From: Sphingopyxis witflariensis
GTDB lineage: Bacteria; Pseudomonadota; Alphaproteobacteria; Sphingomonadales; Sphingomonadaceae
DNA: 64,000 bases
Reading direction: 5' to 3'
Assembly: GCF_002205635.1 (NCBI RefSeq)
Contig: NZ_NISJ01000001.1
Location: 372,001-436,000, forward strand
Both the position numbers and the translations under genes were made by a program. The notes under the pieces are model-generated. The model did not search any database. It was given only the letters and a program-made list of their open reading frames with translations, and had not been told where the DNA came from. The number at the start of each line of letters is the position of its first letter. The stretch's first letter is position 1. Below are positions 31,176 to 49,179 of this stretch, one piece after another.

Positions 31176-33311
31176 CTATGGTTGCAACCGAATCTTTTCG
31201 ACGGCCTCAATCGACGCTTCGACCACCTCGAATAGCTGGTCGTTCGGGATCGGACTTTCACGCCCCTCGGATATCGCCGCAAGGAAAGCGCTCGCGCAAT
31301 CGACCTGCCCCTTGTCCTGGCGCCATAGCTTTTCCTTTCGGAAACCTGGCCAACTAAAGCCGCGCAACGCAACGAAATTGTCGAGCTGAAGCGTCCGGCC
31401 TCCTGCAAACACCTCAATACGTTCTTTGGGAAAACTACTGCCGCCATTCGCAAGATAATGAACCGTGCCGAAGGAACCGTCGGCAAAACTGATAGTTATC
31501 ACGGCCTTGTCCTCAGTCAGCGGCTGGGACGTATTTCTTCCCATGCTCCGCGCCTCGATCGAGACGATCGGCGAACCGGCAAGGAATCGCATCAGGTCGA
31601 TGTGATGGCACGCCTCTCCGATAATGCGCCCCCCACCCAGAGCGGGATCCTGCGTCCAATGACTAGCAGGAATGAAACCTGCGTTCATGACCATGACAAA
31701 AGCCTTGGGCTCGGCCACGCGATCCAAGAGCGTCTTCATTTTCGATACCAGCGGCGAGAAACGGCGGTTGAAACCCACCATCAGCTTAGCGCCCGATGTC
31801 GCATGTGCCGCCTTGATCTCGGCTAGTTCATCGCGCGTCAGACACAACGGCTTTTCGACGAAAACATGCTTTCCGGCATTCAGGGCGGCAATGGTTAAAC
31901 GCGCGTGGCTGTCGTGGCGCGTGGCGATCACGACAGTGTTGATCGCCGGATCGGCGAGTAGTTCGTCGTTGTTGGACGATGCGTGGCGGAAGCCCGCGCT
32001 CTTGCCATGAAGAACACCGCTCGTCCCGCCCGCGGACGCAATCGTATGAAGTGTCGCACCGGCCTTACGAAACGCCGGAATCAAAACGCGCGAGGCATAG
32101 TTGCCTGCGCCGATGAAACCCACAATGGGTGTCGCGGCGTCCGGCACGCGCGCGTCGATAGCCGACACAAGGTCGACCCTCGTCCGGTGCCGCGACTCGA
32201 CGTCGTGCGAATAGTCGAGCACGATGCCCAGCGCGCCCTTGTCGCTCGTCAGAAGCTTGTAGGCCTCAGGGGCTTCGGTGAAAGCAACGCGGTGCGACAC
32301 CAGCCCTTCGATCGTCAGACGGCCCAATGCCATCATGTCGAGGATGGCCACGAAGTTCCGCTGTTCAGTCCAGCGGACGTATCCCAACGGATAGTCCTGC
32401 CCGCGCTCCTCATAGGCAAGATCATAGCGTCCGGGGCCATAGGAGCAGCTGACCTGGAAGGTCAGTTCTTTCTCGTAGAAATCGGCTCGGTTGAGCTCCA
32501 GCCCTGTCACGCCGATCAGGATGATGCGGCCGCGCTTCCTGCTCATTTGCGCGGCCTGTGTTACCGGGGCGTTGGATTTGGTCGATGCGGTGATAATGAC
32601 GGCATCGACACCTTGTCCGCTGCTGAAGGCCATGCCGGCCGCCACCGGGTCTTCACCCGCGCCTGGATTACAGGTTTCAGCGCCGAAGCGGCGAGCAAGC
32701 GCCAGCTTCTCTGCATCGAAATCGATCGCCAGCACGCGACAGCCATGCGCGCGAAGTAATTGTACCGTCAGCAGGCCGATCAACCCGACACCTGTAACGA
32801 CGACGGCTTCGCCAAGCGTCGGTTGCGCGAGGCGGATACCCTGCAGGCCGATGCTCGCAACGACGGTGAAGCAGGCCGCCTCGTCGCTGACGCCGTCGGG
32901 CACTTTGGCGCACAGGTTTTGCGGTACACTGACTACATCCGCGTGCTGTCCGTTCGATACGACCCGGTCGCCAACTGTAAAGCCATCGACCCCGGCGCCC
33001 ACCGCACGCACGACCCCGACATTGCTGTACCCGAGCGGAATCGGCTGCCCCAATTTTGAGCGAACGGCGTCGATCGTCGTCAGAAGACCGTCGGTTTTCA
33101 CCTTGGACAGGACCTGCGCCACTTTTTCAGGCTGCGCGCGCGCCTTCGCAATCATTCCGGCCTTGCCGAAATCGACAAGCATGCGTTCGGTTCCGGTCGA
33201 GATCAGCGTCTTTGTCGTATCGATCAGAAGCTGGCCTGGCCGGACTTGCGGTACCGGGGCCGTAACGAGGATGGTTTCGCCGCCACCGAGATCCTGAAGG
33301 ATTTGCTGCAT
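31176..33311 (-). CDS. Two-domain oxidoreductase: zinc-type alcohol dehydrogenase-like plus Gfo/Idh/MocA
   Basis: A 711-residue fusion. Residues 1-360 are a medium-chain dehydrogenase (LGYSNVGVVRAVGAGVDGFTVGDRV, VVVTGVGLIGLLTVQLLRAHGC), apparently without the usual structural zinc cysteine cluster. Residues 390-711 are a Gfo/Idh/MocA sugar oxidoreductase (VGFIGAGNYASRVLIPAF, HVFVEKPLCLTRDELAEI with the EKP motif). Such fusions recur in surface-polysaccharide loci next to heparinase-like genes. Substrate unknown; oxidation of a sugar hydroxyl coupled to a second redox or elimination step is plausible. It lies 49 bp upstream of the heparinase-like gene. Confidence 0.9.
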   Translation of the reverse strand: MQQILQDLGGGETILVTAPVPQVRPGQLLIDTTKTLISTGTERMLVDFGKAGMIAKARAQPEKVAQVLSKVKTDGLLTTIDAVRSKLGQPIPLGYSNVGVVRAVGAGVDGFTVGDRVVSNGQHADVVSVPQNLCAKVPDGVSDEAACFTVVASIGLQGIRLAQPTLGEAVVVTGVGLIGLLTVQLLRAHGCRVLAIDFDAEKLALARRFGAETCNPGAGEDPVAAGMAFSSGQGVDAVIITASTKSNAPVTQAAQMSRKRGRIILIGVTGLELNRADFYEKELTFQVSCSYGPGRYDLAYEERGQDYPLGYVRWTEQRNFVAILDMMALGRLTIEGLVSHRVAFTEAPEAYKLLTSDKGALGIVLDYSHDVESRHRTRVDLVSAIDARVPDAATPIVGFIGAGNYASRVLIPAFRKAGATLHTIASAGGTSGVLHGKSAGFRHASSNNDELLADPAINTVVIATRHDSHARLTIAALNAGKHVFVEKPLCLTRDELAEIKAAHATSGAKLMVGFNRRFSPLVSKMKTLLDRVAEPKAFVMVMNAGFIPASHWTQDPALGGGRIIGEACHHIDLMRFLAGSPIVSIEARSMGRNTSQPLTEDKAVITISFADGSFGTVHYLANGGSSFPKERIEVFAGGRTLQLDNFVALRGFSWPGFRKEKLWRQDKGQVDCASAFLAAISEGRESPIPNDQLFEVVEASIEAVEKIRLQP

Positions 33312-37335: not shown

Positions 37336-38832
37336 TCATCCGTGATTGGCCTCCAAATCCCCGAATGGCCACCGCATCCGGAACGCCGCAACTGCGACAA
37401 GCCCCGTACCCGCAAGAGCGAGAGCCAAGGCACAGCCAAGAAATAGAAACATCCCTAACCGGGTCGAGCTCAACGGAGCGGCGAAACGTTCAAATGCCAA
37501 GGCGATCGCAATGGCGGCGACCGCCGGCACCAAGAGCAATTGAAGATATGTCCGCACGATACCAAAATTGAGAAACCGGCGATCGACGAGCGCGTGGAAC
37601 GCCATCGAAACCGAAAACTGGATAGCGAAAAATAGCGCAGCAGCGCCCACCGCTCCGAAGTGACCGACGACCAGCCAATAACCAGGTATTGAAACACACA
37701 AAGACGCGAGACCGAGAACGTTGTTAAAGCGCGTATAGCCGTTGGCTAGAGCCACACTGTACGTTAGCGAAGACATCGCCAGGAACGAATAAGATGCGAT
37801 TACCCACGGCACAAACGGGGCCGCATTTTTCGCCACATTGGAATTTCCAGTCCATCCCATCACGACCATTTCCGCATTAACCGCGATCGTTGCCATCACA
37901 GGAAAAACTAGCACCGCGACCAACATTGCAGTCCGTAAATAGAGATCGCGCGCACCGTCGCCATTGCCTTCCGAAAACCACGCCGTCAGGCGCGGCTGAA
38001 TGGCGGCCTGAAATGGCGAGGCAATGGCGATCATACCTGTGCCCAACGCGATAGCGATATTATAATAGCCAAGATATTCCAGATCGAGCAGGCGGCTAAG
38101 CACTATACGATCGAGCTGCGTGTTTACCAAAGCGACGATTGCGATAAGGAAGATGCCAGCCGCAAATCCGCGTATTCGCGCCAGCGTATCCCAATCGACG
38201 AACGGAACCTGAGCCGGTCGCCATGGCGCCAATACGCGGTTCAGTCGCCATTGCGCGACAAGCAGAAGCAGCAAGGTGGCGACCAACTGACAGAAAAAGA
38301 AAACAGAAAGTGTCGGCCATAACATCAGAGGAAGCAGAACCAGTCCGTTACGCGCCGCTCCCCAGGCAATATTGAAAATATTGGCTTCCACTTGCCGCTC
38401 GAGCCCCATCATCGCGCTGACGTAATAGCGGAAAAGCAGCTGCAGCCCCGCTTCGCAGGCGACGATTTTCAGGCACAATGCGATCAACTCACGGTCGATG
38501 GGTGTTTCATTGATAAAACTCACCGCGATGGGGCGCGCGAACAGCAACCCTGCGGCTCCGCAGACAAAAAGCACGAGAACATAGATTTTTTCGAACGCAC
38601 GAAAGCTGCGGAACTTTTCCTGCGCTGACAAATCCCTGCGCGCTATTTCGCGCATGATTGACACCGAGAGGCCTAGGTCGAGAACCATAAGCATCCCCGA
38701 AACAATCAGTGCGAAGGAAATCACACCATAATTGTCAATTCCAAGGATGGATATATAGAGTGGTATAAATATAAAATTGGAAATAGCTGACCAAAATCGA
38801 CCAAAAATATTTGCAATTACATTTCTATTCAT
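37336..38832 (-). CDS. wzx: Polysaccharide flippase, Wzx family
   Basis: A 498-residue MATE/MOP-superfamily membrane protein with about 12-14 helices. The N-terminus NVIANIFGRFWSAISNFIFIP followed by GIDNYGVISFALIVSGMLMVLDLGLS is typical of Wzx. It would move undecaprenyl-linked repeat units across the inner membrane. It overlaps the stop of the upstream acyltransferase gene by 8 bases. The 118 bp between its stop and the polymerase gene contain no intact gene. Confidence 0.9.
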   Translation of the reverse strand: MNRNVIANIFGRFWSAISNFIFIPLYISILGIDNYGVISFALIVSGMLMVLDLGLSVSIMREIARRDLSAQEKFRSFRAFEKIYVLVLFVCGAAGLLFARPIAVSFINETPIDRELIALCLKIVACEAGLQLLFRYYVSAMMGLERQVEANIFNIAWGAARNGLVLLPLMLWPTLSVFFFCQLVATLLLLLVAQWRLNRVLAPWRPAQVPFVDWDTLARIRGFAAGIFLIAIVALVNTQLDRIVLSRLLDLEYLGYYNIAIALGTGMIAIASPFQAAIQPRLTAWFSEGNGDGARDLYLRTAMLVAVLVFPVMATIAVNAEMVVMGWTGNSNVAKNAAPFVPWVIASYSFLAMSSLTYSVALANGYTRFNNVLGLASLCVSIPGYWLVVGHFGAVGAAALFFAIQFSVSMAFHALVDRRFLNFGIVRTYLQLLLVPAVAAIAIALAFERFAAPLSSTRLGMFLFLGCALALALAGTGLVAVAAFRMRWPFGDLEANHG

Positions 38833-39349: not shown

Positions 39350-40498
39350 TCAATTCAATCTGGCGCGAACCGCACCGATCGCATCCGCAATGGATGCAGC
39401 TTCGATCGCAGCACTCTCGGGGAAGAAGCGCACCAGCAGATTGTTCCGAAATTGCACCGCGCGTTTCGCGGTGATGACCAGTGCATAATAGATCATCTGC
39501 GGAACGAGCGTCACCGGTCGCTCGTGCGTATGACGCATCGCATCCCGAATATCCTTTGCGTAAGACCGTTCGAAGATGAAACAAGCGCTATAAAGACACG
39601 CATCGCCAGGCACGCCGAGCGCTGTCGCCCCCGTCCGATTGATCGCGCTGCGCAGCGACTGCGCGTAGATAGTAGGCCCCGACCAGAAAAAGGGGATTTG
39701 CGAATACCATGTCTGCGCCGTATCGGCAGGGAGATGCTTTTGCTCGGCAATCGAACCGCGGTGCTCGCGCATCGTTCCTCGCCCCGCCCCGCTGCTTCGG
39801 CTGTGGCCGGCAATGATCAAGGGGCGTTCGACATGACGGCACCGCTTAACAAAAGCCGCGATCCCGATAGCATTCGCCATATCGGGGCTGGCGCCTGGAA
39901 AGTAGCTTCCGGTTCGATTTTCGACGGCGGCGAGCACTGCGCGACTGACAAAACCCTGATAAACACAGGGCAATCCCTCGAGTCCCAGCGCCCCGCTCCG
40001 AGCAACGACGCGGCGCGCGTCGGCGAGGATATCGGCACGGCCGCGACCGGTGAGTATCCGTCGCCGATAGAGTTTTCCACCGAGCCCACTAATGCTGCGA
40101 TGGGTGATGTCAGGCCATGTATAAAGAAGAACCGCGCCCATCACAGCATCGGCCCCTTCTCTCTTAGCGGCCGCCATTTCGTCCAGCGCCTCATCCAGCA
40201 TAATTCCGTCATCGTCGCCAAGCATGCACACATAGTCGCCTGAACAGGCTCGAACCGCCGCGTCGCAATTGTCGACCACCGAAATCCATCCGTTGGTATA
40301 GGCGTAATGGACGCGCGTATCGTTCAGCTCGGCAACATAAGCAGCCAGTTGATCGTCATCGGAATTATCCTGCAGGATGATTTCAAAATCCCGCCGGTCC
40401 GACCGCAACAGTTCATCGACCAGGTTGATCAGATAGGGCTGACGGTTTTTCGTCGGAATGGCGATGGACAACAGGATGTCGCTATTCTGCGACGCCAT
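39350..40498 (-). CDS. Glycosyltransferase family 2
   Basis: A 382-residue GT-A enzyme with LLSIAIPTKNRQPYLINLVDELL at the N-terminus, FEIILQDNSDDD and the metal-binding CMLGDDDGIM. ATG 40498 is preferred because AAGGA lies six bases upstream; a GTG at 40531 extends it by 11 residues. The long C-terminal part includes amphipathic segments. Acceptor and donor unknown. It follows the CapE-like dehydratase gene by 29 bases in the minus-strand operon. Confidence 0.9.
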   Translation of the reverse strand: MASQNSDILLSIAIPTKNRQPYLINLVDELLRSDRRDFEIILQDNSDDDQLAAYVAELNDTRVHYAYTNGWISVVDNCDAAVRACSGDYVCMLGDDDGIMLDEALDEMAAAKREGADAVMGAVLLYTWPDITHRSISGLGGKLYRRRILTGRGRADILADARRVVARSGALGLEGLPCVYQGFVSRAVLAAVENRTGSYFPGASPDMANAIGIAAFVKRCRHVERPLIIAGHSRSSGAGRGTMREHRGSIAEQKHLPADTAQTWYSQIPFFWSGPTIYAQSLRSAINRTGATALGVPGDACLYSACFIFERSYAKDIRDAMRHTHERPVTLVPQMIYYALVITAKRAVQFRNNLLVRFFPESAAIEAASIADAIGAVRARLN

Positions 40499-40527
40499 AG
40501 AAAAATCCTTCACGGTGCGGCTCAAAA

Positions 40528-41541
40528 TCACTCTTCACCAAGCTCCTGGCGCACATAGGACAGCGACCGCATCAGTTCCATCGTCTCCTCCACTGACAAT
40601 TGCTGCGTGTTGTGTGATGTATAGTCATCGACCACATTGGCCTCGACATTCCCTTCGCTGATGAACAGTTCGTAGTTGAGATCGCGATTATCGGCAGGAA
40701 TCCGGTAATAGCGGCCAAGGTCCTCGGATTTTGCCATTTCCTCGCGCGATACGAGCGTTTCATATAGCTTCTCACCGTGACGCGTGCCCATGATCTCGAT
40801 CGGCGCATCCGACCGGAACAACGTCTTCAACGCGGCGCTCAGATTTTCGAGACTGCACGCCGGCGCTTTCTGGACAAAGATATCGCCCTGATTGCCGTTG
40901 GCGAAAGCGTGGAGAACAAGATCCACCGATTCATCTAGCGACATCATGAAGCGCGTCATGCGCGTGTCCGTCACGCGCAGCGGCCTACCGGCCTTAATTT
41001 TCTCGATAAACAGCGGGATCACCGATCCGCGCGACGCCATGACATTGCCATAGCGAGTCGCGCACATCACCGGGCCTCCGGGGGGCGTTGCAAGCGCGCG
41101 GGCGATCAAGATTTTTTCCGCCATCGCCTTGGAAATACCCATGGCGTTGATCGGATAAACCGCCTTGTCGGTGCTGAGCAGAACCAAGCGCTCAACGCCA
41201 TTCTTAATAGCTGCACGCGCGACATTTTCGGTTCCGACGATATTCGTGCGGACGGCCTCCATCGGGTAGAATTCGCAGGACGGAACCTGCTTCAACGCCG
41301 CCGCGTGAAACACATAATCGACGCCCTGCATCGCGTTGTCGATCGAATCGAAATCACGCACGTCCCCCAGAACAAAGGATACTTTGTTACTGCGCAGTTT
41401 GATTCGAAGATCTTCCTGCTTTTTTTCATCACGGCTGAATATCACGATCCGGGCGACGTCGGTTGCGAGGAATCGGCCCAATACCGTCTTACCGAACGAT
41501 CCCGTTCCGCCGGTAATCATCAACGTCTTATCTTTGAACAT
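40528..41541 (-). CDS. UDP-GlcNAc 4,6-dehydratase/5-epimerase, CapE/FnlA/WbjB type
   Basis: A 337-residue SDR enzyme that makes UDP-2-acetamido-2,6-dideoxy-L-arabino-hexos-4-ulose, the first step to UDP-L-FucNAc or L-QuiNAc. Seen: LMITGGTGSFGKTVLGRFL, VIFSRDEKKQEDLRIKL, FHAAALKQVPSCEFYPMEAV, STDKAVYPINAMGISKAMAE (Met in the Tyr position, as in this class), and RYGNVMASRGSVIPLF. ATG 41541 has GGAG five bases upstream; the frame opens at 41565. Dedicated FnlB reductase and FnlC epimerase partners are not adjacent. Confidence 0.92.
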   Translation of the reverse strand: MFKDKTLMITGGTGSFGKTVLGRFLATDVARIVIFSRDEKKQEDLRIKLRSNKVSFVLGDVRDFDSIDNAMQGVDYVFHAAALKQVPSCEFYPMEAVRTNIVGTENVARAAIKNGVERLVLLSTDKAVYPINAMGISKAMAEKILIARALATPPGGPVMCATRYGNVMASRGSVIPLFIEKIKAGRPLRVTDTRMTRFMMSLDESVDLVLHAFANGNQGDIFVQKAPACSLENLSAALKTLFRSDAPIEIMGTRHGEKLYETLVSREEMAKSEDLGRYYRIPADNRDLNYELFISEGNVEANVVDDYTSHNTQQLSVEETMELMRSLSYVRQELGEE

Positions 41542-41651
41542 GAAAACTCCGTAGTCGTAGATCAAGCTGGTTTACACAGAAGCGTCGTACCGATTAATCA
41601 ATCATCGGGCGCCCCGACGGGATGCTTTTCAAAGCTGGCCCCCTAGCGCAA

Positions 41652-42767
41652 TCATGCCCGCCGCGCGCCAGATATTGTGTCAACGATTCGCCGCCGTTCT
41701 GCCGACCCCACCCACCAGCCGACAGGCACCGCTAAAACACGGTCCATAAACCATTCGGTACCGGGTAACGCCCCAGCCCGGCTCGCGAAACCGGAATAAA
41801 CATGATTGGGCTGATGTAGCTTGGAACAGCCGACCCCCTGCTCTTTCAAAGCCTTGAGCATATCGTCGCGTGCTTCGCAAAGCAGCAACATCGCCCAAAA
41901 GGCCGGAGTGGCACCGCTCAACGGTTGGACAGCAGCGACGCCCGGCACCCCGGCGAGCGCAAGCGTGATCGCTTCCACATTCGCGCGAATGGCCCGCTGC
42001 CGCGTGTCCAGCTGCGCCAGATTGTGCCGCGCCAATGCCGCGTTGACATTCGGCAGCGTCGCCGCGAAGCCTATTTCTGAAATGTCGGCCTGCGGATCGA
42101 TTTCACCTAGCGGATCACGGAAACGCCCCTGATCGATCCCGAAACGCCGCAACTTTCGCGCGGCTGCGGCGGCGTCTTTGTCGCGGCACAACAACGCCGC
42201 CCCTTCGATCGCATTGACTTGACGGTTGGCATAGAAGGAAAAGATCGCAAAATCGCCGATCGATCCTGCGCCCGCTCCACCGGGCAAGCGCGCGCCCAAT
42301 GCATTATTGGCATCTTCGATCAGGGTCAGACCTGCTTCATCGCAAAGCCTCCGCAGCGCCGCAGTATCGGCGGGGTAGCCTGCCACATGATATACAATGA
42401 GGGCACGCGTTGCTGCAGTGACCTTCGACCTCGCGTCATCGACATCCATCGTCGCCGTCGCGGTATCGATATCGACCCAAACGGCGGTGGCACCGATGTG
42501 GCGGATCGCACTGTTCGATGAGAGACAATTGTACGACAGCGTCAACACCTCGTCACCCGGGCCGACACCCGACAGACGTAACGCCAATTCGATCGCCTGC
42601 GTCATATCGCTCACCGCGACGACGGGCGCCCCTCCGTGCCGGGCCGACATCTCGCTTTCCAACGCACCCACGTGCGACCCCGCCGCCAGCTGGCCGGATA
42701 CCAGCGCCGGTGCCATTGCCGCAATCGCAGCTCCATCAACGCGACAATCGAACAGGGGAATCGCCAT
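41652..42767 (-). CDS. DegT/DnrJ/EryC1/StrS-fold protein lacking the catalytic lysine
   Basis: A 371-residue PLP-fold protein of the sugar aminotransferase family with degraded active-site motifs. The Schiff-base Lys is replaced by Arg182 (AIFSFYANRQVNAIEGA; the active sister has Lys in FSLQAIKHMTTVDGG). The SSGT phosphate-binding motif reads SDMTQ at 53-57, and the usual ED-A-H reads EDANNALGA. The overall fold signals are intact (GDEVLTLSYNCLSSNSAI, PNVNAALARHNLAQLD). It lies two bases downstream of a paralogue with a normal active site and shares unusual C-terminal motifs (SKLHQPNH, GWWVGSAERRRI). A partner or regulatory subunit, or a lysine-independent enzyme, is likely. Confidence 0.85.
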   Translation of the reverse strand: MAIPLFDCRVDGAAIAAMAPALVSGQLAAGSHVGALESEMSARHGGAPVVAVSDMTQAIELALRLSGVGPGDEVLTLSYNCLSSNSAIRHIGATAVWVDIDTATATMDVDDARSKVTAATRALIVYHVAGYPADTAALRRLCDEAGLTLIEDANNALGARLPGGAGAGSIGDFAIFSFYANRQVNAIEGAALLCRDKDAAAAARKLRRFGIDQGRFRDPLGEIDPQADISEIGFAATLPNVNAALARHNLAQLDTRQRAIRANVEAITLALAGVPGVAAVQPLSGATPAFWAMLLLCEARDDMLKALKEQGVGCSKLHQPNHVYSGFASRAGALPGTEWFMDRVLAVPVGWWVGSAERRRIVDTISGARRA

Positions 42768-42769
42768 CT

Positions 42770-43876
42770 CTAGCCCTTCGCCAGCGCATCGATGATCCGT
42801 TGCCGATCTTCATCGCCGACCCACCAGCCAGACGGTATATGAACCAGCCGCTGGTAAAAGCTGTCGAGCCCCGGCATCGGTCCGGCAAAAGGCGCAAATG
42901 CAGAATGAAAATGGTTCGGCCGATGCAGCTTTGACGCGCTGACACCGATCGCCGCAAGGCACTGCTCCACCTCATCCGAATTATCGGCTAGCAACGTGTA
43001 TATCCAGTAGCTCGGGTTGGCTTCGGCTAGGACAACGGCCGGCTTAATGCCCGCGATTGCGGCAAGCTCGCGATCGAAAAAGCGGCCGTTGTTGCAGTGG
43101 CGCGCGATCAGGCCGTCGATATGATCCAGTTGTTGCAGGCCAATCGTTGCCGTGACATTGCTCATATTATATTTGAAGCCCGGACGCTTTATGTCGACCT
43201 CCGTGCGGGGGACTCCTTTTGTCAGGCCGAACCAGCGCAACTGCTTCGCAAGCAAGGTCTGCGCGGGGTCGCGCAGACCCAAAATACCGCCATCGACCGT
43301 GGTCATATGCTTGATCGCCTGAAGCGAAAAAATGGCGGAATCACCGATGGTCCCGATCGGCTTTCCGGCGTAGCGCGCACCGAGCGCATGCGCACAATCC
43401 TCAATCAGGCCGATCTCATGCCGATCCGCGATCGCACGCAGCGCAGCCAGATCCGCCGGGTAGCCGGCATAGTGCACCACGCAGATCGCAGCCGTTCGCT
43501 CCGTCACCGCAGCCTGAACGGCGGCCGGTGATAGATTGCCCGTATCGGGGTCGACGTCGGCAAATACGGGCGTTGCCCCGGTTTGCATGATGACCGTGTT
43601 CGTCGGCTCCGCGGTCATCGACGTCGTGATGACCTCACGCCCCGGCCCCGCGCCCGAGAGCAACAGCGCCACATGCAGCGCACCGGTCCCGCTGCTTGTC
43701 GCAAGTGCCCGCGGCAATCCGAATTGTTCGCCAAAGCGGCGCTCGAATTCATAAACGGCTTCACCCTCCCCGATCATGCCGCTGTACAGCACCTCTTCCA
43801 GAGCCGGCATAAGCCGTTCCCGCGGCGGCATGGCGACTTTGACGAGGGGCAAAGGCGACGAGACCGAACTGGTCAT
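42770..43876 (-). CDS. DegT/DnrJ/EryC1/StrS aminotransferase
   Basis: A 368-residue PLP-dependent sugar aminotransferase with intact landmarks: TSSGTGALHVAL at 60-71, IEDCAHALGA at 158-167, and Schiff-base Lys189 in FSLQAIKHMTTVDGGIL. It would convert a 4-keto (or 3-keto) nucleotide sugar to an amino sugar, possibly the product of the CapE-like enzyme two genes downstream. The C-terminus (SKLHRPNHFHSAF, SGWWVGDEDRQRI) closely resembles the lysine-less neighbour. The two genes are separated by two bases, so equal production is likely. Confidence 0.9.
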   Translation of the reverse strand: MTSSVSSPLPLVKVAMPPRERLMPALEEVLYSGMIGEGEAVYEFERRFGEQFGLPRALATSSGTGALHVALLLSGAGPGREVITTSMTAEPTNTVIMQTGATPVFADVDPDTGNLSPAAVQAAVTERTAAICVVHYAGYPADLAALRAIADRHEIGLIEDCAHALGARYAGKPIGTIGDSAIFSLQAIKHMTTVDGGILGLRDPAQTLLAKQLRWFGLTKGVPRTEVDIKRPGFKYNMSNVTATIGLQQLDHIDGLIARHCNNGRFFDRELAAIAGIKPAVVLAEANPSYWIYTLLADNSDEVEQCLAAIGVSASKLHRPNHFHSAFAPFAGPMPGLDSFYQRLVHIPSGWWVGDEDRQRIIDALAKG

Positions 43877-43952: not shown

Positions 43953-44828
43953 TCATTCCGAAAGGAAACGAACCTTGTTGTTAGACAAGGCCTTCAGAAC
44001 CCGTTGCTCGATCGGAGTGAACATTTTCTGATATTTTTTCGTGTCGATGTTGCAAATAGTCGCGTCGCCAAAGCGATCCGCAGCCGCCTGCTGGCGCGCG
44101 CTATCGCTGACGAAGACTATAGCCTCGTCTTTCCCGGCCGCCTTCCAGCGATAAGCGAGAATTCCGTCTGCTGCCCCATCCAACTGCTCGATGCCCAGCT
44201 CGACTTCGAGGTCGCTCATCCACCCGGTCAGCATCTCCCACTTCTCCTCGGCCGAAACCGTTTTGTAGAAGGACAATGCCTCCTTCTGCATGGCCGGCGA
44301 ACCGGCCAGCACGACTTCGGCGGGCCAGGACCTGGTGATGTTCGATCCGATCAGCGCGACGGTGCGACGACCGATCGTTACGCCAGAAGCACAAATGCAC
44401 GAACCGACCAACCAGACATCATCTTCGATCACGACGGGCCGTTCGCCATAAAGGGTGCAACCCTCGATCCGTTCGCCTGCCGCGACGTGCGACCAGATTT
44501 GCGAATACATGCCAACGCGAACGCCGTTGCCGATCGTCAGCCCCCCACTACCATCTAATACGGTGTTTTGGCCGAACCAGCCGTGCTGGCCGATCGTAAC
44601 GCCCTGAGTCGAAAGGATGAGGCAATTATCGTGCAGCGACGTCCAATCCCCGATGCTAACCGCACCACCGCTCACGATGAACTTGACACCCGGCCCGATG
44701 GAGCAATAATCGCCGATCTCTACGCGCGCCGGCTTATGAAAAACGATCTTGACGCCCGCAGCGATCGACGTGCCCTTACCGATTACGACCTCGCCATCGC
44801 CAATGATCTCGATATTGCTGTGCACCAC
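43953..44828 (-). CDS. Hexapeptide-repeat acyltransferase with C-terminal extension
   Basis: A 291-residue protein. Residues 1-180 are a left-handed beta-helix with many hexapeptide turns (GDGEVVIGKGTSIAAGVKIV, GDYCSIGPGVKFIVSGG, RPVVIEDDVWLVGSCICASG, VTIGRRTVALIGSN). After the closing EVVLAGSPAMQKEAL there are about 105 extra residues without a recognised fold, ending in a basic tail (KKYQKMFTPIEQRVLKAL). It follows a MarR-type regulator gene and precedes the two DegT genes, so N-acylation of a new amino sugar is a reasonable guess. Confidence 0.85.
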   Translation of the reverse strand: MVHSNIEIIGDGEVVIGKGTSIAAGVKIVFHKPARVEIGDYCSIGPGVKFIVSGGAVSIGDWTSLHDNCLILSTQGVTIGQHGWFGQNTVLDGSGGLTIGNGVRVGMYSQIWSHVAAGERIEGCTLYGERPVVIEDDVWLVGSCICASGVTIGRRTVALIGSNITRSWPAEVVLAGSPAMQKEALSFYKTVSAEEKWEMLTGWMSDLEVELGIEQLDGAADGILAYRWKAAGKDEAIVFVSDSARQQAAADRFGDATICNIDTKKYQKMFTPIEQRVLKALSNNKVRFLSE

Positions 44829-47238: not shown

Positions 47239-49179
47239 TCATGCTGCGACCTCGACCGGTTGATCAACACTCATGTCGCCATCGATGAAAATGCGGAACC
47301 ATAGCTCAACGCTCAACAGGCGGAATAATAAGGTGCCATGATTCTTGCGGCCCGACCGATGATCCTCGATCATCCCCTTCAGCCCTTCGTCATCGAACAG
47401 CCCCCGCGCAAGGCACCGGTCGCCGAGCAGGATGTCCAGCGGACCCGTTCCGGGCGTGTAGGGTTTTTGGAACTGTCGTCCGATCGGGGTGGTAAAACCA
47501 TATTTGGTCGTTTCATCAAGGATCGCATCATCGACCAGCCCACGCATGGCCTGGCGATGAATATATTTGCCTACGCCCAGTTCGACTTTGAAGTCGCCGG
47601 GAAGAGGCCAGACAAATTCCACCAGCCGGTGATCGAGGAAGGGCATGCGCGCCTCAAGGCTATTCGCCATCGAAATGGCGTCGCCATAGTGCAGCAAGTT
47701 GACGAGCCCGCCACTATGCTGTTCACGCAGCCGCCGCGCGAGAGCTCCTTCTCCCGCGACAGGTTCCAAAGTCGGGAAATCGGCCATAGGCGCATGTTCG
47801 CGTAATCGAGGCCCATAGATGACGTCGAACCCCTGTAGCCGCTGTTGCAAGCGCAAAATCCACGGCAGATCGTTGCTTGCCTGCCTCGCGACCAGAAAAA
47901 TCAATGAGCGGAGCGTATAGGTTTTTAGATATTGCCGCAGGCCGCGCCACGCCTTCCCCAGCCGTCCCGATGCAATCAGGTCGCGTTCAGCGGGCCACAC
48001 CACCGCCGAGATATAGCCGGCTAGTAGTTCGTCGGCTCCCTGCCCGTCCAACACCACGGTCAAGCGTTTGCGTGCTTCCTGGAGCAGCTGCATCAGCGGG
48101 ATCACCGCGGGCGAGCTGTTGCCGCTTTCGAGATGATAAACGATCTGGCCAAGCCGTCCGATGAAATCGGAATAATTAGTGTCTATTATATGGGCATCGA
48201 GACCAAGCCTTTCGGCGGTCTCGCACGCAACGATCGATTCATCTATCCTCCTCGTGCTATCCTGATAGATAGTGCCGTCCTGAACCAGCCCTTCCTCGTC
48301 ATCGAACCGCGCGGTAAAGCTGTGGTGCGGTGCTGGGTCGATGACCTGCATGACCGACGCGATCGAATTGGAATCGACCCCCGACGACAAGGTAATGCCG
48401 AGCGGAACATCGCTCCGCATCCGCAGACGAACCGCGTCTTCGAATAATTCGCCATATTGACGCCGGGCTTCGTCGAAGCCGAGGTTGCACCGCCCGATCG
48501 GATAATCCCAATATCGCCACATTCGCAGCGCGCCGTTGGCGTCGATCGTCAGATTATGGCCCGGTTGCAGCCGACGGACGTCGCGGAACCAGCTCTGTTC
48601 GTGCTGAGCACCTACCGATGTGCGGCAATAATTGGCGATCACGCCGTAGTCGGGCTCGGCCAACGCCGGCGCATAGTGGAGCAATGATTTGATTTCGGAC
48701 GCAAACAGCAATTGACCGTCATGCACGGCATAGTTGAACGGCTTGATACCAAACCGATCTCGCGAGGCGAAAATCGTCCGCTCGACGCAGTCATAAATGG
48801 CAAAAGCCCACATGCCGTTGAAACGACTGACACAGTCATCGCCCCACTGTATATAGGCCCGGAGCAGGACCTCGGTATCACCGCTCGTCTGAAAAGCGAC
48901 ACCGAGCGCCTCCAGTTCGGCTCGGAGTTCGAGATAATTGAAGATCTCGCCATTATAGGTCAGCCAATAACGGTCGGAAATCTGGAACGGCTGGTTGCTT
49001 TCATCGGACAGGTCGATGATCGACAGCCGGGCATGACCGAACATCACCCCATCTACGACCCGCTGCGACCGCCGCCCGTCGGGTCCACGATGAGCAAGTT
49101 TTTCCAGCCCTTCGCGGAATCGACCCTCATCGATCGGGCGCCCGCCACCCAGGTCAACGATGCCGAAAATGCCGCACAA
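47239..49179 (-). CDS. asnB: Glutamine-hydrolysing asparagine synthetase-like amidotransferase
   Basis: A 646-residue protein with an N-terminal Ntn glutaminase domain (nucleophile Cys2 in MCGIFGIVD, then HRGPDG, YNGEIFNYLEL, SGDTEVLL) and a C-terminal synthetase domain (PP-loop ITLSSGVDSNSIASV, VVLDGQGADELLAGY). True AsnB makes asparagine, but copies inside O-antigen and capsule loci are linked to amidation of uronic acids. The neighbouring UDP-HexNAc dehydrogenases make that role likely here; it is not proven. Confidence 0.9.
   Translation of the reverse strand: MCGIFGIVDLGGGRPIDEGRFREGLEKLAHRGPDGRRSQRVVDGVMFGHARLSIIDLSDESNQPFQISDRYWLTYNGEIFNYLELRAELEALGVAFQTSGDTEVLLRAYIQWGDDCVSRFNGMWAFAIYDCVERTIFASRDRFGIKPFNYAVHDGQLLFASEIKSLLHYAPALAEPDYGVIANYCRTSVGAQHEQSWFRDVRRLQPGHNLTIDANGALRMWRYWDYPIGRCNLGFDEARRQYGELFEDAVRLRMRSDVPLGITLSSGVDSNSIASVMQVIDPAPHHSFTARFDDEEGLVQDGTIYQDSTRRIDESIVACETAERLGLDAHIIDTNYSDFIGRLGQIVYHLESGNSSPAVIPLMQLLQEARKRLTVVLDGQGADELLAGYISAVVWPAERDLIASGRLGKAWRGLRQYLKTYTLRSLIFLVARQASNDLPWILRLQQRLQGFDVIYGPRLREHAPMADFPTLEPVAGEGALARRLREQHSGGLVNLLHYGDAISMANSLEARMPFLDHRLVEFVWPLPGDFKVELGVGKYIHRQAMRGLVDDAILDETTKYGFTTPIGRQFQKPYTPGTGPLDILLGDRCLARGLFDDEGLKGMIEDHRSGRKNHGTLLFRLLSVELWFRIFIDGDMSVDQPVEVAA

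Follow-up and report, generated by a model that had tools for sequence, protein, structure and literature searches.

A tandem pair of DegT-family proteins with arginine in place of the catalytic lysine in the downstream member: a candidate heteromeric nucleotide-sugar aminotransferase

Introduction

Enzymes of the DegT family make amino sugars found on bacterial surfaces and in antibiotics. In published structures both subunits contribute to each active site (PMC5936713; PMC8040287). The locus described here raises the question of what a DegT protein is kept for when it carries an arginine in place of the catalytic lysine and is encoded directly beside a paralogue that retains this lysine. In Spr1654, the pyridoxal phosphate (PLP) site of one chain comprises Thr59, Tyr84, Asp170, His173, Ser194, and Lys199, and a flexible loop from the partner chain, together with further residues of that chain, closes the modelled substrate site (PMC5936713). 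The partner chain of Pcryo_0638 adds Lys215 and Tyr229, and the only ligand contacts of this enzyme that are strictly conserved in PglE and DesI are Thr60, Asp156, Ser180, Lys185, and Asn239 (PMC8040287).

In this study, we analysed a stretch of 64,000 nucleotides from Sphingopyxis witflariensis (assembly GCF_002205635.1, contig NZ_NISJ01000001.1, positions 372,001 to 436,000), hereafter the window, in which such a pair had been noticed from the letters alone (the original prediction). The lysine-bearing and the lysine-less members are called the K chain and the R chain, respectively; K2, R2, and K:R denote their dimers.

Materials and Methods

Pair loci were collected with R-chain queries in 1,989 genome searches, in which some genomes were covered more than once, and in a plasmid collection. 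All matches at E 1e-60 or better in one genome search and at 1e-75 or better in the others were inspected. In most genome searches 5 to 11 candidates per genome were scored, and in two of them (106 and 19 matching genomes) weaker matches were checked at the lysine column in up to 30 loci each. Loci L004, L005, and L006 were merged in the counts with G021, G1488, and G1285, whose contigs have the same lengths (40149, 37118, and 103844, respectively), and the repeat copies L103 and L104 were left out. Some start codons were chosen by hand: for G235 the scripted start gave an overlap of 76 bp and a later ATG was chosen, giving a distance of −1; for G1219 a TTG start gives −4 and the inner ATG +14; and in G745 an inner Met was taken as the start of the K chain. 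In G1727 the contig ends within the R chain, and the neighbourhood of this pair was left out of the context counts.

The maximum-likelihood tree contained the 78 rows left after exclusion of sequences shorter than 330 residues, identical rows and repeat copies of pair loci, and was rooted at the midpoint. The 50 rows referred to as other DegT proteins were matches of the R-chain searches and are thus a biased sample of the family.

Results

The K chain (P0002; 42770..43876, minus strand, 368 amino acids) is the upstream gene of the pair and the R chain (P0001; 41652..42767, minus strand, 371 amino acids) the downstream one, with a gap of 2 bp between them. The K chain, a DegT-family aminotransferase, has the motifs SSGT and EDCAH, and its Lys189 (codon at 43310..43312, minus strand, counted from the start at 43876), the internal-aldimine lysine, lies within AIKHMTT. 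The R chain reads SDMT and EDANN at these motifs, and its Arg182 (codon at 42222..42224, minus strand, counted from the start at 42767) lies within ANRQVNA. Coordinates, strand, gap and these residues agree with the original prediction, and its proposal that Arg182 takes the place of the catalytic lysine was borne out by alignment to the solved DegT protein AtmS13, which sets Arg182 on the lysine column. The two window chains are 37% identical in a pairwise alignment. With the R chain as query, the pair gave the only two strong DegT matches of the window genome (17 candidates scored); a third DegT protein was considered as partner and discarded, since its match (E 8e-4, about 99 residues) was too weak to count.

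Both chains match PF01041 over their full length (227.6 bits for the R chain and 292.4 for the K chain; cut-off 19.8), and both are far below the cut-offs of the NCBIfam equivalog models for nucleotide-sugar aminotransferases (ArnB, PseC, DesI, WecE, and others), the K chain scoring 208.9 bits with the ArnB model (cut-off 631). The AlphaFold2 monomer models had a mean pLDDT of 89.1 (R) and 87.7 (K), with values below 50 in the K model at residues 189-191, around the catalytic lysine, and at loop residues 217-227 and 229-232. The best structural matches were 7b0m for the R model (Z 47.0, rmsd 2.9 over 358) and 4zas for the K model (Z 46.5, rmsd 2.0 over 356), and the 50 structural matches listed for each chain are sugar aminotransferases and relatives of the DegT family, matching over the whole length. 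A profile of the R chains scored at best 263 bits against DegT entries, with E1 dehydrase in the middle of the list (131 bits) and ColD among the weakest matches (97-100 bits).

The pair was present in 14 genomes and one plasmid record. Its hosts are Sphingopyxis and relatives, Pseudomonas, Cupriavidus and its kin and two more distant groups; they include Sphingopyxis granuli, Cupriavidus sp. U2, Pseudomonas sp. BGI-2 and, for the plasmid, Sphingomonadaceae bacterium OTU29MARTA1. In one set of named genomes the pair was found in three of four relatives. The lysine lies in the upstream chain and the arginine in the downstream chain in all 15 pairs, and the intergenic distance ranges from −4 to +15 bp (some start codons chosen by hand). 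As the loci had been found with R-chain queries, the informative part is that a K chain adjoins every R chain. Neither a solitary R chain nor a solitary chain of the K clade was seen among the matches inspected (E 1e-60 or 1e-75 or better); G760 and G440, two lysine-bearing relatives that occur singly, branch outside the K clade. In the deepest pair, G1727, the R chain is 33-40% identical to the other R chains and still has Arg. No relative was found among viral contigs searched with a five-row R profile.

The original prediction had named loss of the arginine in orthologues retaining the pair, or another lysine in the active site, as findings that would speak against it. Neither was found: Lys189 is present in 15/15 K chains and Arg182 in 15/15 R chains, which accordingly lack the internal-aldimine lysine, and the sole Lys invariant over 14 R chains is the C-terminal Lys308, replaced by Arg in the 15th. 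Chance or a sequencing error as the source of the arginine was ruled out because 15 independent loci agree. Two points of the motif reading had to be amended. SKLHxPNH and GWWVG had been called rare motifs shared by the pair, but just three of the 14 R chains have SKLHxPNH, while S-x-[LIV]-H-x-[RA]-N-[DH] stands in the other 11, and GWW is also found in AtmS13, so that these C-terminal motifs are not pair-specific. EDANN is correct for the window R chain, but its second Asn varies (12 of 14 R chains have Asn and two have Ala; the 15th has Glu).

With respect to the cofactor site, the R chains keep Asp152 (14/14), Ser177 (14/14) and Thr56 (13/14, with Ser in the other one), and the 15th has the same Asp and Ser, with Ser also in place of the Thr. 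The counterparts of these three residues hold the PLP phosphate and ring nitrogen in Spr1654 (PMC5936713). The His/Gln position that contacts O3′ of PLP is Asn or Ala in 14 R chains and Glu in the 15th, and the aromatic position that packs on PLP (Phe, Trp or Tyr in 45 of 50 other DegT proteins) is Cys in 14/14 R chains and Ala in 14/14 K chains. Of ten cofactor or substrate positions derived from Spr1654, six are invariant in 14 R chains, compared with 50 of 361 positions elsewhere (Fisher p = 0.001), and five of the six are also kept in the 15th. Asp54, Cys81, Tyr126, Arg182, Phe216, Gly221, Glu222, Ile223, and Tyr324 are constant in 15/15 R chains and rare elsewhere. Near the N-terminus the R chains keep [ST]-G-x-[IL] (Gly25 in 14/14), which, mapped by eye, appears to correspond to the segment that lines the uracil pocket of Spr1654 (PMC5936713).

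The inter-subunit loop differs between the chains. That of the K chain (residues 217-238; 43163..43228, minus strand) ends in the canonical G[FY]KYNM, in which Lys235, Tyr236, and Asn237 are present in 14/14 K chains; in other DegT loops Lys or Asn stands at the first of these positions in 48/50 and Asn or Arg at the third in 48/50. In view of Arg229 of ArnB and the flexible region described in PMC5936713, and of what is usual in the family, these [NK]-x-[NR] residues probably act in trans. The R-chain loop (residues 210-240; 42048..42140, minus strand) lacks them in 14 of 14 chains, and the 15th has Phe and Cys there. Its own pattern (F216-R217-x3-G221-E222-I223 ... D228 ... G233 ... N240) includes a motif FR-x3-GEI, found in 15/15 R chains, with F216, G221, E222, and I223 kept in all of them; it continues as F-R-x3-G-E-I-[DN] and stands earlier in the loop than K-Y-N. 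The loop is always 15 residues long in K chains and 22 in R chains; since 22 is the commonest length among other DegT proteins (17/50), it is the K loop that is the short one. All nine R-invariant columns of residues 210-240 are retained in the deepest pair, compared with 30 of 43 other columns, a difference that is not significant (p = 0.09).

In the 78-row tree the 14 R chains formed one clade and the 14 K chains another, each with 100/100 support, and both clades grouped with the lone relatives G760 and G440 apart from 48 other DegT proteins. When the G1727 pair was added (FastTree) both groups remained intact (support 0.91 for R and 0.999 for K). The catalytic column is Lys in 49 and Gly in one of the 50 other DegT proteins, and the loss of the lysine is for this reason placed most simply on the R stem. 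The K and R identity matrices correlate at r = 0.88 (0 of 5,000 permutations as high), but the controls, in which K or R was compared with three other proteins of its locus (dehydratase, glycosyltransferase, and flippase), gave 0.82 to 0.94. Co-phylogeny was thus discarded as evidence of a K:R complex, and the correlation is attributed to the shared cassette.

It must be considered that the R gene could be a decaying, functionless duplicate, as its lysine is gone and R has evolved faster than K, with the lower identity in 91/91 genome comparisons (mean identity 51% vs. 65%). Nevertheless, dN/dS was 0.08-0.12 for R and 0.04-0.09 for K (6/6 comparisons; dS 0.65-2.24, partly saturated), values which indicate that the R gene is maintained under purifying selection. 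In addition, 56 columns are invariant over 14 divergent R chains, and R adjoins K in every pair, down to the 33-40% identity of the deepest one. These selection and conservation results refute a pseudogene, and we give this explanation practically no credence.

The pair lies in a cassette of polysaccharide genes. Immediately upstream there is a hexapeptide-repeat (LbH) acyltransferase-like protein (43953..44828, minus strand), in the slot that a GNAT occupies in 10 of 14 pair loci, and upstream of the cassette a MarR-type EPS-associated regulator (TIGR04176; 44914..45276, minus strand). Downstream are an FnlA-like UDP-GlcNAc 4,6-dehydratase of the SDR type (40528..41565, minus strand), the presumed source of a 4-keto sugar, a family 2 glycosyltransferase (39350..40531, minus strand), and a Wzx-type polysaccharide flippase (37336..38832, minus strand). 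The flippase and the glycosyltransferase are downstream on the same strand in 14/14 pair loci. The dehydratase is on the same strand in 13/14, within 1.4 kb in 12 of them and at 5.5 kb in G235. The exception, G745, has it on the opposite strand, beside L-FucNAc-type genes. An acyltransferase is directly upstream of the pair in 12 of the 14 loci inspected (10 GNAT and two LbH, the latter in the window and in S. granuli), and no such gene was found at this place in G054 or G745. The six full-length SDR proteins that were scanned scored 491-578 bits, below the FnlA equivalog cut-off of 730, and for this reason they are called FnlA-like and not FnlA. This setting suggests a 6-deoxysugar derived from UDP-GlcNAc, 4-aminated and N-acylated.

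Discussion

We consider it moderately probable that K and R build one obligate heteromeric nucleotide-sugar aminotransferase with a lysine site and a remodelled Arg site, because the pairing is strict, the genes are closely coupled and the inter-subunit loop has been fixed anew. Complex formation, loop placement, ligand, and substrate are what we infer from the sequences, as follows. The K chain, with PLP bound to Lys189, would perform the transamination, and the R chain would be a duplicated copy that lost its lysine early and persists as an obligate partner. As R has lost the loop motif, the lysine site of a K:R dimer would receive a non-canonical loop: the R loop with FR-x3-GEI would lie over it, in place of the loop of a second K chain. 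The R pocket (Asp54, Cys81, Asp152, Ser177, and Arg182) would in turn be covered by the canonical KYN loop of the K chain, and it probably still binds a phosphate-bearing ligand, either PLP or pyridoxamine phosphate (PMP) or a nucleotide sugar, with no Schiff base. The likely substrate would be the 4-keto product of the nearby FnlA-like dehydratase, and the 4-amino product would be N-acylated by the adjacent GNAT or LbH enzyme and then passed to the adjacent glycosyltransferase and flippase.

The obligate partnership suggested by the original prediction fits the adjacency in 15/15 loci and the remodelled inter-subunit loop, the heterodimer itself being a further step of reasoning. That R simply completes the active site of its neighbour fits less well, given that the [NK]-x-[NR] loop residues are gone from R and present in K; an R homodimer may instead perform a different reaction. 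Some observations go against the heteromer. Nothing that was tested is missing from the K chain for a complete homodimeric site. The R pocket shows strong conservation, which would be needless in a purely structural partner, and gene adjacency also fits two successive enzymes of one pathway.

The constancy of the K loop says that it would serve either K2 or an Arg site that still binds ligand, and the constancy of the R pocket points likewise. A more elaborate form of the heteromer would have two unlike functional sites at its interface: a lysine site with a borrowed, non-canonical loop, and an Arg site with the canonical loop which binds PLP/PMP or a nucleotide sugar without a Schiff base and performs or gates a second step, so that two linked reactions would take place on the same sugar. 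We put this forward tentatively, as rather improbable. It is also rather improbable that two separate homodimers act in succession, with K2 as an ordinary 4-aminotransferase and R2 as another enzyme of the pathway, whose remodelled site would use PMP or PLP with no Schiff base, as in ColD/E1, or would dispense with PLP. The complete site of K2 agrees with this, and as the lysine and the neighbour-contacting loop motif are lost in the same chain, the R2 site would be coherently remodelled. The retention in R of Thr56 (13/14), Asp152, and Ser177 (both 14/14) and the constancy of Asp54, Cys81, Tyr126, and Arg182 also count in its favour. Nevertheless, R lacks the His/Gln of the O3′ contact position (it has Asn or Ala there, and Glu in G1727), ColD-type enzymes carry His and not Arg at the lysine position, and ColD is among the weakest of the R-profile matches, although E1 is in the middle of them. 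Moreover, there appears to be no evident missing step of the pathway for R2 to perform, and a complex agrees well with genes that overlap or are closely spaced.

An R chain acting as a non-catalytic homodimer or accessory, a carrier or regulator to which the labile 4-keto nucleotide sugar binds before it is delivered to either K2 or the acyltransferase, would agree with the preserved [ST]-G-x-[IL] (Gly25 in 14/14) and its apparent match to the uracil pocket of Spr1654, whose authors suggested that a complex might serve to transfer unstable 4-keto intermediates internally (PMC5936713). It does not explain why Arg182 and the neighbour-reaching loop are conserved, and we find it distinctly unlikely. 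We know of no free-standing sugar-carrier role for any DegT protein.

Returning to the K:R heteromer, we found no paper describing a DegT protein that is heteromeric or carries the Arg in the open-licence literature, which is narrower than all that is in print, nor is there anything on such a protein in the available part of PMC9309667. If the heteromer is true, it would be, as far as our searches show, the first DegT aminotransferase built of two unlike chains, and the pair spans several bacterial classes. It would also provide a soluble bacterial model for the evolution of pseudoenzyme partners of PLP enzymes. In the plasmid locus the R chain is labelled an aminotransferase, yet it cannot form the internal aldimine, which is a warning for annotation; the signature of arginine plus loop makes the question directly testable.

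The new part is the lysine-less paired paralogue, as the fold, the family and the type of pathway are already known. AtmS13/CalS13 (PDB 4xau, 4zwv, 4zas) are the best PDB sequence matches of both chains and have the same fold. AtmS13 shares the C-terminal GWW with the pair and the lysine segment Q-A-[IL]-K-H-[ML]-T with the K chain, but these enzymes have the lysine, whereas the R chain has Arg and lacks the [NK]-x-[NR] loop residues, and the aromatic residue that packs on PLP in AtmS13 is Ala in K and Cys in R. PseC and ArnB are symmetric dimers with the lysine in each subunit. Together with Spr1654 and Pcryo_0638, they belong to the same PF01041 family as the pair and follow the same pathway logic, from UDP-sugar 4,6-dehydratase to aminotransferase and, in Pcryo_0638, to N-acetyltransferase. 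Spr1654 and Pcryo_0638 are likewise described as symmetric dimers with a lysine in each subunit (PMC5936713; PMC8040287).

The sugar 3-dehydratases ColD and E1 (AscC-type) have the DegT fold and, as in the R chain, a replaced catalytic lysine. They carry His at this position and use PMP. The R chain differs from them in having Arg and in lying beside a lysine-bearing paralogue in all 15 loci, and its membership of the ColD-type dehydratases was ruled out by the presence of Arg, not His, in 15/15.

Outside the family, bacterial glycine decarboxylase P-protein is encoded by the tandem genes GcvPA/GcvPB, one with the PLP lysine and the other without it, in a different family and with no sugar substrate. 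In serine palmitoyltransferase, the lysine-less hLCB1 partners hLCB2, with a single active site as the working hypothesis (PMC3794620). LCB1/LCB2 thus resemble K/R as lysine-bearing and lysine-less paralogues of a PLP enzyme; they differ in family and chemistry and in being eukaryotic and membrane-bound, and the heterodimer that is established for them is the arrangement that we propose for the K and R chains.

The Pair and its Lysine-Less Relatives

In the upstream, lysine-bearing chain of the pair (K chain, 42770-43876), Ala89 stands where most DegT enzymes have an aromatic side chain packed against PLP. The segment in which it lies, M-T-A-E-P-T-N (residues 87-93), was invariant in the K chains of all 14 pair loci compared, and inspection by eye revealed it in the fifteenth K chain as well.

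A further DegT-like protein without the lysine was observed in genome G093 (locus L014, C1:875459-876499), with glycine at the lysine column, within 'FDLSQPGVICCGEGG', and with the phosphate serine replaced by aspartate. In the maximum-likelihood tree it fell outside the clade of the downstream Arg182 paralogues (R chains) and formed the longest branch.

Genes Surrounding the Pair

The position occupied by a GNAT protein in 10 of the 14 pair loci is taken by a hexapeptide-repeat acyltransferase-like protein in two others, those of the window (43953-44828) and of S. granuli. The enzyme of the acylation step thus appears to differ between loci through non-homologous replacement. Upstream of the pair in genome G745, the acyltransferase place is held by a protein with 6-phosphogluconate/3-hydroxyisobutyrate dehydrogenase domains (locus L077, 7491-8798), whose first 143 residues matched no family in a Pfam search at E 1e-5.

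The window polysaccharide locus of the pair also encodes a 711-residue fusion of zinc-type alcohol dehydrogenase and GFO/IDH/MocA oxidoreductase domains (31176-33311), together with a long protein (47239-49179) whose N-terminus presumably resembles an enzyme of the glutamine-dependent asparagine synthetase type.
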